Source: Candidatus Woesearchaeota archaeon (GTDB taxonomy: Archaea; Nanobdellota; Nanobdellia; Woesearchaeales; ARS49). Taken from it: a stretch of DNA of 48,954 nucleotides. Both the position numbers and the translations under genes were made by a program. Where the stretch lies: positions 1 through 48,954 of the forward strand of contig NYZT01000026.1 in the NCBI GenBank assembly GCA_002687275.1. The letters are read 5' to 3'. How positions within the stretch are numbered: the stretch's first letter is position 1; the number at the start of each line of letters is the position of its first letter. Below the pieces are notes generated by a model, which worked only from the letters and a program-made list of their open reading frames with translations, searched no databases and was not told the DNA's origin. This document shows positions 3,028-48,954 of the stretch, piece after piece.

Positions 3028-3159
3028 CCCAGCGTAGCTCAACGGCAGAGCGGTCGGCTGTAGAAGATGTCACTCACAGACTATGCGTTAGCTAAGGATG
3101 AAAGTGAGGGTAGCCCTGCCGTTCCCGACAGGTTGGCGGTTCAAATCCGCCCGCTGGGA
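3028..3159 (+). tRNA. tRNA-Tyr(GTA) with a ~60-nt intron at about position 37/38 (approx. 3064-3123)
   Basis: Acceptor CCCAGCG/CGCTGGG (C1-G72, as in archaeal Tyr), D-arm GCTC..GAGC, anticodon stem GTCGG/CCGAC interrupted after CTGTAG, T-arm GGCGGTTCAAATCCGCC. Confidence 0.85.
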
Positions 3160-45234: not shown

Positions 45235-45309
45235 GGTCCCGTAGCTCAGCCTGGTTAGAGCGCCGCTCTGATAAGGCGGAGGTCCGGTGTTCGAATCACC
45301 GCGGGACCA
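45235..45309 (+). tRNA. tRNA-Ile(GAT)
   Basis: GGTCCCGTAGCTCAGCCTGGTTAGAGCGCCGCTCTGATAAGGCGGAGGTCCGGTGTTCGAATCACCGCGGGACCA; TATA TTTATAAA about 30 nt upstream. Confidence 0.95.
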
Positions 45310-45315
45310 TTCATT
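45297..45315 (+). repeat. tRNA-Ile 3'-end repeat R1 (in the intact tRNA)
   Basis: CACCGCGGGACCATTCATT; identical to R2. Confidence 0.9.
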
Positions 45316-45337
45316 ATTTCTGCAAGTTGAGGTATTG

Positions 45338-45352
45338 CCGGAAAGTTTCCGG
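45338..45352. repeat. Perfect inverted repeat upstream of module A
   Basis: CCGGAAAGTTTCCGG; related CGGAAAGTTTCCG at 48007-48019 upstream of module B. Confidence 0.7.
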
Positions 45353-45363
45353 GATACAAATCG

Positions 45364-45389
45364 AAAGGTATATAAATGGTAATACCTTT
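45364..45389. promoter_or_regulatory. TATA box embedded in an inverted repeat (candidate autoregulatory operator)
   Basis: AAAGGTAT-ATAAATGGTA-ATACCTTT ending ~10 nt before the ATG at 45399; near-identical element at 48032-48057. Confidence 0.6.
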
Positions 45390-45398
45390 GTAATTCGT

Positions 45399-45803
45399 AT
45401 GGTTACAGAAATTATTCCAACGAAGTTTCCAGAGCAAGATGTGAAAGCAATGGATGCACTCATAAAAAAAGGAGTCTTTATTTCCCGAAGCGACCTGATT
45501 AGAGACGCTGCTCGAGAGAAAATTAGGGAAGTTAAGGCACCAAATGAGTTTGAGAAAGCCGTAAAGGTAATGGCTGCAAAAGGCGATTTTTCCAGCCTAG
45601 AAGGCAGGACCTTAGCATCTCTTTTCTTGAATCCGGAAAAACAGGGGTTTAATCCTGCTGAAAAAAAGACTATTGCCAAACTTCTTCGTCATCCATTTAA
45701 AATTCTAAAAAAACTTAGAACAAGAGTTGAATTGACAGATAATGGCCAGAAGATTGCCCGAGGTTATCTGAAGGGCTTGGCCTTTGCTCAAACACTTGCA
45801 TGA
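45399..45803 (+). CDS. RHH-wHTH DNA-binding protein, module A protein 1
   Basis: MVTEIIPTKFPEQDVKAMDALIKKGVFISRSDLIRDAAREKI (RHH) plus VELTDNGQKIARGYLKGLAFA (wHTH-like); 134 aa, ~92% identical to 48067..48471 by eye. Confidence 0.8.
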   Translation: MVTEIIPTKFPEQDVKAMDALIKKGVFISRSDLIRDAAREKIREVKAPNEFEKAVKVMAAKGDFSSLEGRTLASLFLNPEKQGFNPAEKKTIAKLLRHPFKILKKLRTRVELTDNGQKIARGYLKGLAFAQTLA

Positions 45804-46054
45804 CCTCATTGGAAGGGAAGGATCTAGAAATTTTTTGCAAAACCGCTAAAACTATTTTCAAAAAAGGCCATCTTAATTTCGATGCCATTTTACGTTTTAT
45901 CGGGTCAAGGAATCATAAGCAAGACCAGAAAACGTTAGAAAAGTTGTATAAACTTGGCTTAATAGTAAAGCATAGGTCTGATACTTATGAGCTTTCTAGT
46001 ATTGGGAGAATGCTTGCAATGGATCAGTGTGAGTGGTTTAAGGAGCGCCATTAA
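45800..46054 (+). CDS. Small wHTH-like protein, module A protein 2
   Basis: 84 aa; ATGA overlap with protein 1; close homologue at 48468..48722. Confidence 0.75.
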   Translation: MTSLEGKDLEIFCKTAKTIFKKGHLNFDAILRFIGSRNHKQDQKTLEKLYKLGLIVKHRSDTYELSSIGRMLAMDQCEWFKERH

Positions 46055-46056
46055 AA

Positions 46057-46075
46057 CACCGCGGGACCATTCATT
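46057..46075 (+). repeat. tRNA-Ile 3'-end repeat R2
   Basis: CACCGCGGGACCATTCATT, exact copy of 45297-45315. Confidence 0.9.
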
Positions 46076-46325
46076 CTATTAAGTCCTCAATATCCTCTCT
46101 CTTTTTCGGATTGAGACTAACTTCTAATCCGTAATGTGTTGGCTTGGAAAGCAGTAATTTATCTTTCAATAATTCTTCAATGGCTTTCTTAACCTCTTTT
46201 GACACTCTGAGAGTGTTGGAGAGCCCTTTTGGCAAGTTATTGATATTGGTATGCTTGTGCAGCCACATTCGTTTCCTGTACAATTTTCGCACGATAAATT
46301 TCTGTATGACTTGCTTCTCATCCAT
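46071..46325 (-). CDS. Small archaeal wHTH-like protein
   Basis: 84 aa; HKHTNINNLPKGLSNTLRVSKEVKKAIEELLKDKLLLSKPTHYGLEVSLNP; stop codon lies inside R2. Confidence 0.65.
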   Translation of the reverse strand: MDEKQVIQKFIVRKLYRKRMWLHKHTNINNLPKGLSNTLRVSKEVKKAIEELLKDKLLLSKPTHYGLEVSLNPKKREDIEDLIE

Positions 46326-46343
46326 GGATTCTCTAATAGGGAG

Positions 46344-46372
46344 TTGTTATATTAATAACTTCCGTTTTAGTA
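46344..46372 (-). promoter_or_regulatory. Candidate shared promoter/operator element, copy 2
   Basis: TTGTTATATTAATAACT-N5-TTTAGTA, same as 4522-4550. Confidence 0.5.
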
Positions 46373-46426
46373 TCTATGTTCTCTGAAATAGGAATGCTTA
46401 AATACTTGCCAGCCTTTCAAGTCTCT

Positions 46427-46747
46427 ATGGAAGAAAAGAGTGTGTTTGTGGAGTATTTTGGTGACTATCCGTTTATTAGGGTGCTGGACTTTTTGATCGA
46501 AAGTAGAGAAATGGACTATAGCATGACGGAAATAGCTAGGAATTCGAGGGTTGGCTGGACTTCTTTTTCTGAAATATGGCCCTCATTGATAAAAAAAGAG
46601 ATTGTCTCTCTGACAAGAAAGGTAGGAAATGCAAAATTGTTCAAACTCAACACCAAAAACTTGTGGGTAAGAGAGTTAATACGCATGGATAAAGTTATCA
46701 CTAAGCTGGAAACTGAGAAAATACTTCCAAGAAAGGTTGTTGCCTAG
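46427..46747 (+). CDS. Winged-helix DNA-binding protein (widespread archaeal type)
   Basis: VFVEYFGDYPFIRVLDFLIESREMDYSMTEIARNSRVGWTSFSEIWPSLIKKEIVSLTRKVGNAKLFKLN; TATA CTTAAATAC ~25 nt upstream. Confidence 0.75.
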   Translation: MEEKSVFVEYFGDYPFIRVLDFLIESREMDYSMTEIARNSRVGWTSFSEIWPSLIKKEIVSLTRKVGNAKLFKLNTKNLWVRELIRMDKVITKLETEKILPRKVVA

Positions 46748-46750
46748 TCA

Positions 46751-46777
46751 GGTGTTCGAATCACCGCGGGACCATTC
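46751..46777 (+). repeat. tRNA-Ile 3'-end repeat R3
   Basis: GGTGTTCGAATCACCGCGGGACCATTC, exact copy of 45286-45312. Confidence 0.92.
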
Positions 46778-46810
46778 CTATTTTTATACTAGTAAACTTT
46801 CCCTCGTCAT

Positions 46811-47944
46811 ATGAAAAAGAGGTTTGTTGAAACTGTTATAATTGGCGGAGGGATGGCCGGCATAGGATGCGCCCGGACGCTGCTAAAGAAAGGCCACAAG
46901 AACTTTAAATTGATCACTGAGGATATCGGTGGGAGGCTTCGAATGTCTGATGATGGACATGTCGCTTATGGGGCTTATTTTATTGGCGATGATTACCACC
47001 ATACCAAAAAATTCTTTAAGAAGGTGAGGGAGATTAACATTTTCAGGGTGAGATTTCATGACGCGTCAGGTTCTTACAAGACGGTGAGTTCCTTTTTGCA
47101 TCCTATTCAGGTCCTCAAATTCCTTTACTTAATCAACAAATTCCGAAGGCACTATGAGGGCTTGAAAAAAAGATGTGAAGCGGTAAGCCAACCTGTTGCG
47201 CTAAAGGAGGACGAATTCCTTTATGGTCTTTACAAAACAAGGGCAATTGATTTTGTTAAGAGTCAAGGCATACATGGAATTAGCAATAAGTTCATGTCGG
47301 AAACCATGTATGGGCTAATTTTCCTGGGACTTGAGGAATACTCTGCTTTTGAATTCTTTAGATGGATGCAGTACTTTAACCGGCCACTATTTGAATTTCA
47401 CTTTCTGAAGGAAAAATTCCTGTCAGGAATAAAACGAAAAATTATTTTTGGCAAAGTCGTGAGGATTTCCAAGAAGAGAGACTCTTATGAAGTTAAATTT
47501 AAAAAAGAGGTTTTGTCTTGCAAAAATTTGGTTGTAGCCACCCCCCCACACATTTCAAAGAGGCTTCTGGGTATTCAAAAGATAAAAAAACCCGCAAAGG
47601 CCTACATGTTTCACATAAGAGGAGTTATCCGACCCCCTTGGGCTGATGATTACGAATTATTTTCTCAACATTCCGAATTAATTGATATTGCTCATCAGCA
47701 TGATGGGTCTTACCTGCTGTATTGTTTGTCGCCTACCCCTAACTTAAGTAAGTACTTCTCTGAGCATGATTTGGTTAAGAAACTTCACTGGGACCCTGCT
47801 TTTAACGCCGCAGGCCATGTGCTGTGGGACTGCGAGGTTAAATCAAACCTTTTCTTGATCGGTGACCACAACATAATTGGCATGGAAGATGCCTTCATAA
47901 CTGGTATTTACGCAGCTAACCAAATTGTCAAAAAAATGCGGTGA
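46811..47944 (+). CDS. FAD-dependent oxidoreductase (amine oxidase/UGM-like Rossmann)
   Basis: TVIIGGGMAGIGCARTLLKKGHKNFKLITEDIGGRLRMS; C-terminal LFLIGDHNIIGMEDAFITGIYAANQIV; TATA directly after R3. Confidence 0.8.
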   Translation: MKKRFVETVIIGGGMAGIGCARTLLKKGHKNFKLITEDIGGRLRMSDDGHVAYGAYFIGDDYHHTKKFFKKVREINIFRVRFHDASGSYKTVSSFLHPIQVLKFLYLINKFRRHYEGLKKRCEAVSQPVALKEDEFLYGLYKTRAIDFVKSQGIHGISNKFMSETMYGLIFLGLEEYSAFEFFRWMQYFNRPLFEFHFLKEKFLSGIKRKIIFGKVVRISKKRDSYEVKFKKEVLSCKNLVVATPPHISKRLLGIQKIKKPAKAYMFHIRGVIRPPWADDYELFSQHSELIDIAHQHDGSYLLYCLSPTPNLSKYFSEHDLVKKLHWDPAFNAAGHVLWDCEVKSNLFLIGDHNIIGMEDAFITGIYAANQIVKKMR

Positions 47945-47985
47945 TTCGAACACCAACCTATTGTGGTCCGCGGGACCACCATTTT
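47938..47985. repeat. Composite tRNA-Ile end repeat R4 (inverted T-arm copy plus acceptor-end palindrome)
   Basis: GCGGTGATTCGAACACC (47938-47954) is the reverse complement of 45286-45302; followed by GTGGTCCGCGGGACCAC. Confidence 0.75.
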
Positions 47986-48066
47986 TTCTGAGTGTTGAGT
48001 CTTTCCCGGAAAGTTTCCGAACTATAAAACAAAAGGTATATAAATGGTAATACTTTTGTAACATGT

Positions 48067-48471
48067 ATGGGTACAGAAATTATTCCGACGAAGTTTCCAG
48101 AACAAGATGTTAAGGAGATGGACGCGCTTGTTAAGAAGGGAGTCTTTATTTCTAGAAGCGATCTAATTAGAGACGCCGCTCGGGAAAAAATGAGAGAAGT
48201 TGGGGCGCCAAATGAGTTTGAGCGTGCAGTAAAAGTAATGGCTGCAAAGGGCGATTTTTCTAGCCTAGAAGGCCGGACCTTGGCCTCGCTTTTCTTGAAT
48301 CCGGAAAAACAGAGGTTTAGCCCTGCGGAAAAAAAGGCCATTGCCAAACTCCTCCGTCATCCATTCAAAATTCTTAAAAAAATTAAAACGAGAGTTGAAT
48401 TGACAGATAACGGCCAAAAGATTGCCCGAGGTTACCTGAAAGGCTTGGCCTTTGCCCAAACACTTGCATGA
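48067..48471 (+). CDS. RHH-wHTH DNA-binding protein, module B protein 1
   Basis: MGTEIIPTKFPEQDVKEMDALVKKGVFISRSDLIRDAAREKM...; 11 differences from module A copy over 134 aa by eye. Confidence 0.8.
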   Translation: MGTEIIPTKFPEQDVKEMDALVKKGVFISRSDLIRDAAREKMREVGAPNEFERAVKVMAAKGDFSSLEGRTLASLFLNPEKQRFSPAEKKAIAKLLRHPFKILKKIKTRVELTDNGQKIARGYLKGLAFAQTLA

Positions 48472-48722
48472 CCTCCCTAGAAGGAAAGGATCTAGAACTT
48501 TTTTGCAAAACTGCTAAAACTATTTTCAAAAAGGGCCATCTTACTTTCGATGCCATTTTACGTTTTATCGGGTCAAAGAATCACAGGCAAGACAGGAAAA
48601 CGTTAGAAAAGTTGCACAAACTTGGCTTAATAGTCAAGCATAGAACGGATACTTACGAGCTTTCCAGCATTGGGAGAATGTTTTCAATGGATCAATGCGA
48701 ATGGTTCAAAGAACGTAAGTAA
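48468..48722 (+). CDS. Small wHTH-like protein, module B protein 2
   Basis: 84 aa; 10 differences from module A copy by eye. Confidence 0.75.
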   Translation: MTSLEGKDLELFCKTAKTIFKKGHLTFDAILRFIGSKNHRQDRKTLEKLHKLGLIVKHRTDTYELSSIGRMFSMDQCEWFKERK

Positions 48723-48769: not shown

Positions 48770-48785
48770 ACGTTTATAAACGTTC
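48770..48785. promoter_or_regulatory. Palindromic TATA box of tRNA-Asn
   Basis: AACGTTTATAAACGTT upstream of tRNA-Asn. Confidence 0.55.
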
Positions 48786-48805
48786 TGCGCGCTTTTTAGG
48801 GTATG

Positions 48806-48877
48806 CCCCTGTAGCTCAGCCGGTAGAGCGAGTGACTGTTAATCACTAGGTCCGCAGTTCGAGTCTGCGCGGGGGCG
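48806..48877 (+). tRNA. tRNA-Asn(GTT)
   Basis: GCCCCTGTAGCTCAGCCGGTAGAGCGAGTGACTGTTAATCACTAGGTCCGCAGTTCGAGTCTGCGCGGGGGCG; anticodon loop CTGTTAA. Confidence 0.95.
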
Positions 48878-48954
48878 TTGGAATACAACCTAGAGCTTGA
48901 CAACGTGGCCAAACGTATCAAGGACGAGAAGGCCAAGACGGTCTGCATCCAACT
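48878..48954 (+). CDS. dph2: Dph2-like N-terminal part (runs off the window)
   Basis: TTG start directly after tRNA-Asn; (M)EYNLELDNVAKRIKDEKAKTVCIQ matches the Dph2 N-terminus pattern. Confidence 0.7.
   Translation, partial: MEYNLELDNVAKRIKDEKAKTVCIQ

Follow-up and report, generated by a model that had tools for sequence, protein, structure and literature searches.

A protein gene of the Woesearchaeota, dph2-N, begins at the very nucleotide that follows a tRNA gene, and the same design is seen at other tRNAs of the family. We argue that this is tRNA punctuation like that of mitochondria, with tRNase Z making leaderless mRNAs at the ends of tRNAs. We consider this likely, with a probability of roughly 0.8. 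It is inferred from sequence alone, and there are no RNA or protein data. A bolder reading is that this family of Woesearchaeota uses tRNase Z cuts recurrently to make leaderless mRNAs, which is also likely in our view, again without RNA evidence. If it is true these archaea have a distinct class of messages that carry a 5' monophosphate, start with UUG or U-AUG and have their output tied to tRNA transcription.

The window is the whole stretch of DNA that was analysed, 48,954 nucleotides. It is contig C26 of a 1.09-Mb genome in 55 contigs (G000). The closest named relative is a congener, Candidatus Woesearchaeota archaeon ETNP7_MAG_72 (G001).

Table 1. Features of the window that bear on the junction between tRNA-Asn and dph2-N.
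Feature	Position	Strand	Basis or remark
TATA box TTTATAA, tRNA-Asn promoter	48773..48779	+	32 nt to tRNA G1
tRNA-Asn(GTT)	48805..48877	+	Rfam RF00005, 69 bits; acceptor pairing read directly
Predicted site of tRNase Z cleavage, after G48877	48877..48878	+	cut inferred
TTG start codon of dph2-N	48878..48880	+	first three bases past tRNA-Asn, zero gap to G48877
dph2-N, split-Dph2 N-terminal domain with the first Fe-S cysteine, cut off at contig end	48878..48954	+	continues on contig C37(-), join inferred
C-terminal part of split Dph2, cut by contig start	3..314	-	PF01866 positions 61-178, E 1.6e-15

The junction and its conservation

The acceptor stem of tRNA-Asn, GCCCCTG/CGGGGGC, pairs 48805-48811 with 48870-48876, and the discriminator is G48877. 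An initial annotation had the tRNA starting at 48806, which is wrong by one base. It also had the TTG right after the discriminator, and this held by both Rfam and the acceptor pairing. ARAGORN puts the tRNA at 48804-48878, a one-base misregister that the pairing check and Rfam rule out.

The TATA box of the tRNA lies 105 nt upstream of the TTG. Its spacing to G1 is the one most often seen among the genus's tRNAs (14 of 20), and transcription is predicted to start about 2-3 nt before G1. In promoter-made leaderless mRNAs of these archaea the ATG comes 29-30 nt after the start of the box. The initial annotation saw no TATA other than the tRNA's, which held, as TTTATAA is the sole box near. There is no TATA-like box between it and the dph2-N ORF. 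The hallmark of promoter-made archaeal leaderless mRNA, a TATA box about 26-31 nt before the start codon, is absent at dph2-N.

The congener has the same zero gap between tRNA-Asn and dph2-N, and the same TTG. This conservation and the roughly tenfold enrichment of gaps 0-1 over all tRNAs of both genomes, described below, show that the junction exceeds chance. In another genus (G023) dph2-N begins 1 nt after tRNA-Ile, with an ATG after a single T. In most other relatives where tRNA-Asn is close by, it is divergent or lies about 7-75 nt upstream of dph2-N. It must be noted that ARAGORN tRNA ends count one base more in some of these gap figures. In these relatives, with tRNA-Asn upstream or divergent, dph2-N often has a TATA-like box of its own before its ATG. 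The tight arrangement of a tRNA and dph2-N is confined to the window's family among 80 public loci. Conservation of the zero spacing had been proposed as a check on the initial annotation. It is met in the congener, but the zero gap at tRNA-Asn is not universal among relatives.

The gene and its start codon

The dph2-N ORF has 25 codons and then runs off the contig end. The minus strand of contig C37 opens with 11 bases that repeat the last 11 of the window with one mismatch, and we infer that C37 is the continuation of the gene. Joined across the two contigs it reads MEYNLELDNVAKRIKDEKAKTVCIQ-LPDGLKQRAGEIASHLEKATDSTVLIWLGSCFGACDLPDVEGLGVDLLVQWGHAEWNF. The window's own 25 aa are too short for Pfam, and the assignment rests on the complete congener protein, which has 84 aa and matches PF01866 positions 1-56 (1.7e-10). 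The first Fe-S cysteine motif of Dph2, GSCFGACD, is present in the congener and in the C37 continuation. The identification of the ORF as the N-terminus of Dph2 in the initial annotation held.

Across the order Dph2 is split, with 80-95 aa in the N-terminal protein and about 230 aa in the other part. Of the 57 genomes with matches, most have the two parts at separate loci, and two (G030 and G036) have them side by side. The two-locus layout of the window is also found on one contig in the congener. The split is not new, since split DPH2 was previously reported in the nanoarchaeon Nst1 (PMC3655853).

In about 47 relatives the ATG start, before MxYDLELD, aligns with the window's TTG or lies no more than a few codons from it. 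Codons 1-25 of dph2-N have 11 synonymous and 4 nonsynonymous differences between the window and the congener, and three of the synonymous ones (codons 4, 6 and 8) precede a GTG at 48905. We conclude from this pattern that the stretch is translated, and no common start codon other than TTG lies ahead of it.

One can imagine that the GTG is the real start, which would leave a 27-nt leader after cleavage. It is in frame, and the congener has GTG at the same codon. However, this start would lose the MxYDLELD segment, which is retained in nearly all of the 47 relatives. The relatives' ATG sits at the position of the TTG and not at the GTG, the synonymous codons lie upstream of it, and no Shine-Dalgarno motif is visible before it. 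We therefore consider this start very unlikely. A different, conserved start codon downstream had been named as a refutation of the initial annotation. The GTG is shared with the congener, but the ATG of the relatives favours the TTG position.

A census of tRNA ends

All 74 tRNAs of G000 and G001 were examined for ORFs of >=80 aa, with the truncated dph2-N added. An ORF starts at gap 0 after 5 tRNAs and at gap 1 after 4, or 9 of 74 in total. Gaps 2-60 hold 26 ORF starts, which is 0.44 per position, so about 0.9 would be expected at gaps 0-1 where 9 are observed (Poisson P ~4e-7). The nine ORFs include two ortholog pairs and represent 7 distinct genes, so some counts are not fully independent.

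The gap-0 genes are dph2-N twice, an ACT-domain protein, a 139-aa protein and a 119-aa protein behind tRNA-Ser. All five start with TTG. The genes for the ACT-domain and the 139-aa protein are unrelated and both are abutted by tRNA-Leu(TAG), each in one of the two congeners (loci L102 and L336), with zero gap and TTG in both. The 119-aa gene (L105) has its TTG at the tRNA-Ser boundary in G000, and its ortholog in G001 has an ATG 33 nt downstream of the tRNA and its own TTTTTTAAAC box. The initial annotation had a single junction in view. The finding is wider than that, as it recurs at other tRNAs.

Why the start codon is TTG

Of the 74 tRNAs, 61 have a T directly past the discriminator, 10 have a C, 2 a G and one an A. 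With T nearly always in this position an ATG at gap 0 is all but excluded. A start codon at the cut is therefore either TTG at gap 0 or a single T and then ATG.

Leaderless genes made by promoters look different. In the two genomes 102 ORFs have an ATG 28-31 nt after the start of a TATA box, while TTG and GTG show no peak there and stay at background level. The contrast between these 102 ATG starts and the 0 ATG to 5 TTG at tRNA gap 0 is significant (Fisher P ~5e-6). Sulfolobus genes that are fully leaderless likewise avoid UUG, and RNA polymerase is the probable cause (PMC7531240). Since promoter-made leaderless genes use ATG, a 5' UUG fits cleavage and not initiation by RNA polymerase. It is likely, by inference, that a 5' UUG can be made by a nuclease and apparently not by a promoter. 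UUG is usually a weak start codon. Since it is weak, and is avoided in the fully leaderless Sulfolobus genes, the output of dph2-N may be low.

An alternative is that the dph2-N mRNA is initiated directly, either from a promoter within the tRNA or at a cryptic transcription start at 48878. In its favour, promoter-made leaderless mRNAs dominate in this genus. However, no TATA-like box separates the ORF from the one that belongs to the tRNA, the start is TTG where promoter-made leaderless genes use ATG, and direct initiation does not explain why starts fall exactly at the tRNA boundary for many different tRNAs. We consider it very unlikely.

Another scenario is that the uncut transcript is itself the mRNA, with the tRNA as a structured 5' UTR. 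There is precedent for this, as tRNA-containing 5' UTRs are reported in archaea (PMC4247193, PMC3491384). However, an uncut mRNA would have no leader between its start codon and the closed GC acceptor stem. This scenario predicts neither the sharp peak at gaps 0-1 nor the alternation between TTG at gap 0 and T-ATG, so it too is very unlikely. Cleavage by tRNase Z remains our preferred reading.

Recurrence in the family

Nine further genomes of the family show a peak of ATG at gap 1 behind tRNA T-arms, with 17 sites where gaps 2-30 average 3.7, or about 4-5-fold. When 19 gap-1 sites were fetched, 14 led straight to substantial ORFs and 5 did not. The abutting genes are unrelated: TruD, PIG-L, HAD, DUF212, NT5C, GNAT, DsbB, a methyltransferase, an alpha/beta hydrolase (abhydrolase) and DUF488. 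Genes with TTG at gap 0 in other family genomes include TruD (G007) and a radical SAM protein (G008), the latter with an ATG also present two codons in. Matches to TTG at gap 0 without an ORF, about two thirds of all such matches, were discarded as chance.

TruD lies behind tRNA-Arg(CCT) in two genomes, with TTG at gap 0 in G007 and T-ATG in G010, and the two proteins are 41% identical. The pairing of this tRNA with TruD persists while the junction alternates between its two forms.

The rest of the order is different. Outside the family, tRNA-like sites with ATG at gaps 1, 4 and 10 number 38, 39 and about 63, compared with 17, 4 and 5 inside it (Fisher P 4e-4). In the order beyond the family gap 1 does not exceed the control gaps 4 and 10, so the gap-1 peak is specific to the family and not to the order. 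There are 1.8 gap-1 sites per genome in the family and 0.15 in other genomes of the phylum. A few genuine gap-1 genes are also found outside the family, such as HypA and a methyltransferase.

These distributions bear on whether genome compaction alone, without any role in processing, could have produced the small gaps. The genome is small (1.09 Mb), and the family often has dph2-N beside tRNA-Asn with a larger gap, both of which are compatible with compaction. However, compaction predicts a smooth distribution of gaps. Gaps 0-1 are instead about tenfold over gaps 2-60 in the two congeners, gap 1 stands out 4-5-fold over gaps 2-30 in the nine other family genomes, and no such excess over gaps 4 and 10 exists elsewhere in the order. 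Compaction alone is very unlikely.

Two further layouts were observed. Homologous genes of about 350 aa with no Pfam match (L234, L240 and L244) lie at gaps 1, 1 and 4 behind tRNA-Arg(CCT) or a similar tRNA in three genera. At two loci (L092 and L123) a gene resembling histidyl-tRNA synthetase begins 13 nt past an apparent tRNA-His. The spacer holds a GAGGTG Shine-Dalgarno, so this is a leadered variant of the layout in which a tRNA is paired with its own synthetase.

Other features of the window

Between tRNA-Ile and tRNA-Asn there are copies of the tRNA-Ile 3' end at 45282-45319, 46042-46079, 46747-46784 and about 47940-47985 (inverse strand). The segment 45312-45611 is repeated at 47980-48279 (83%). 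The ORFs 45800-46054 and 48468-48722 are nearly identical, and each repeat unit has a ribbon-helix-helix gene. In the congener an FAD-oxidoreductase gene comes directly after tRNA-Ile, which suggests that 45310-46784 of the window was inserted at the 3' end of tRNA-Ile. For the tRNA-gene junctions themselves we rejected an origin as integration sites, since this does not account for start codons in exact register at core genes, truD and dph2 among them. Rfam also gives a 132-nt tRNA match at 3028-3159 that default ARAGORN does not report. This tRNA probably has a long intron.

Proposed mechanism

We propose that tRNA-Asn and dph2-N would form one transcription unit from the TATA box at 48773. 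In maturing the tRNA 3' end, tRNase Z would cut after G48877; the enzyme's cut site lies just past the discriminator (PMC3433465). G000, at C44:11468-12349, and G001 both encode a canonical tRNase Z (TIGR02651, 338 bits, over cut-off). The cut would free a 5'-monophosphorylated mRNA with UUG at 48878 as its first codon. This mRNA would be translated as leaderless, the main mode for promoter-proximal genes in G000. The same design is predicted at several other tRNAs of the family, and the U after the discriminator would set its two forms, N73 followed by UUG or N73 followed by U-AUG.

With the tRNA box at its usual spacing, no other box and tRNase Z encoded, co-transcription, one cut and leaderless translation would explain all of the observations. 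The sequence establishes the junction, its conservation and recurrence, the T rule, the lack of another promoter, the restriction of promoter-made leaderless genes to ATG and the existence of a tRNase Z gene. It does not establish co-transcription, cleavage, the position of the 5' end or the translation of dph2-N mRNA, all of which are inferences. The tRNA-mRNA fusion matured by tRNase Z into a leaderless mRNA, the core of the initial annotation, is supported by every sequence-level prediction tested, with the cleavage itself inferred.

If this is correct, these junctions are a clean natural test of whether ribosomes accept leaderless mRNAs with a 5' monophosphate and a UUG start. tRNA transcription is suggested as the driver for genes such as truD and dph2. 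For annotation, the ends of tRNAs should be checked for TTG at gap 0 and T-ATG.

Comparison with known systems

There are archaeal precedents for parts of this scheme. In T. kodakarensis tRNA-Lys is within the 159-nt 5' UTR of TK0306 (PMC4247193), and in N. equitans a tRNA-His half is upstream of the valyl-tRNA synthetase gene (PMC3491384). As proposed for dph2-N, an archaeal tRNA or tRNA half is co-transcribed with a downstream protein gene. They differ in having a long or structured leader, and no exact 0-1 nt junction or leaderless product is proposed in the sections bearing on it. The tRNase Z of H. volcanii matures the 5' end of 5S rRNA (Hoelzle 2008, cited in PMC7714728). There too an RNA downstream obtains its 5' end from an archaeal tRNase Z, but this RNA is rRNA and not mRNA. 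Promoter-made archaeal leaderless mRNAs (PMC7531240) likewise have their 5' end at or <=1 nt from the start codon. However, theirs is a 5' triphosphate from RNA polymerase, with TATA about 29 nt before an ATG, while dph2-N has no such box and a 5' UUG. No prior archaeal report of exact tRNA junctions yielding leaderless mRNAs was found in the open-access literature searched. This is weak evidence, since subscription papers were outside its scope.

The closest comparison is with animal mitochondria, where tRNA punctuation was reportedly described by Ojala, Montoya and Attardi in 1981. The initial annotation knew of no case in which such processing is established as a regular way of making mRNA 5' ends; animal mitochondria are one, so this part failed. 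In both systems tRNAs adjoin ORFs at 0-1 nt. In mitochondria tRNA end processing gives leaderless mRNAs (PMC9881170) that begin at the start codon, and a processing-made 5' phosphate has been noted (PMC7531240). The mitochondrial criteria met in the Woesearchaeota are starts at 0-1 nt behind several tRNAs, no separate promoter (at dph2-N) and a 3'-end endonuclease. There are also differences. In animal mitochondria RNase P and tRNase Z both cut a long polycistron, whereas in this family one cellular tRNA gene carries the downstream gene and only the 3' cut matters. The junctions of this family also obey a U-first rule, giving UUG or U-AUG. tRNAs do not separate most genes of a genome-length polycistron in G000 and G001. 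Most of the 74 tRNAs are without an abutting gene and most have TATA boxes of their own, so the system is punctuation-like and not a member of the organellar one. Since mitochondria already use tRNA punctuation, only its recurring use in archaea is new. If our reading is true, mitochondrial tRNA punctuation has a separately arisen cellular counterpart in tiny uncultured archaea.
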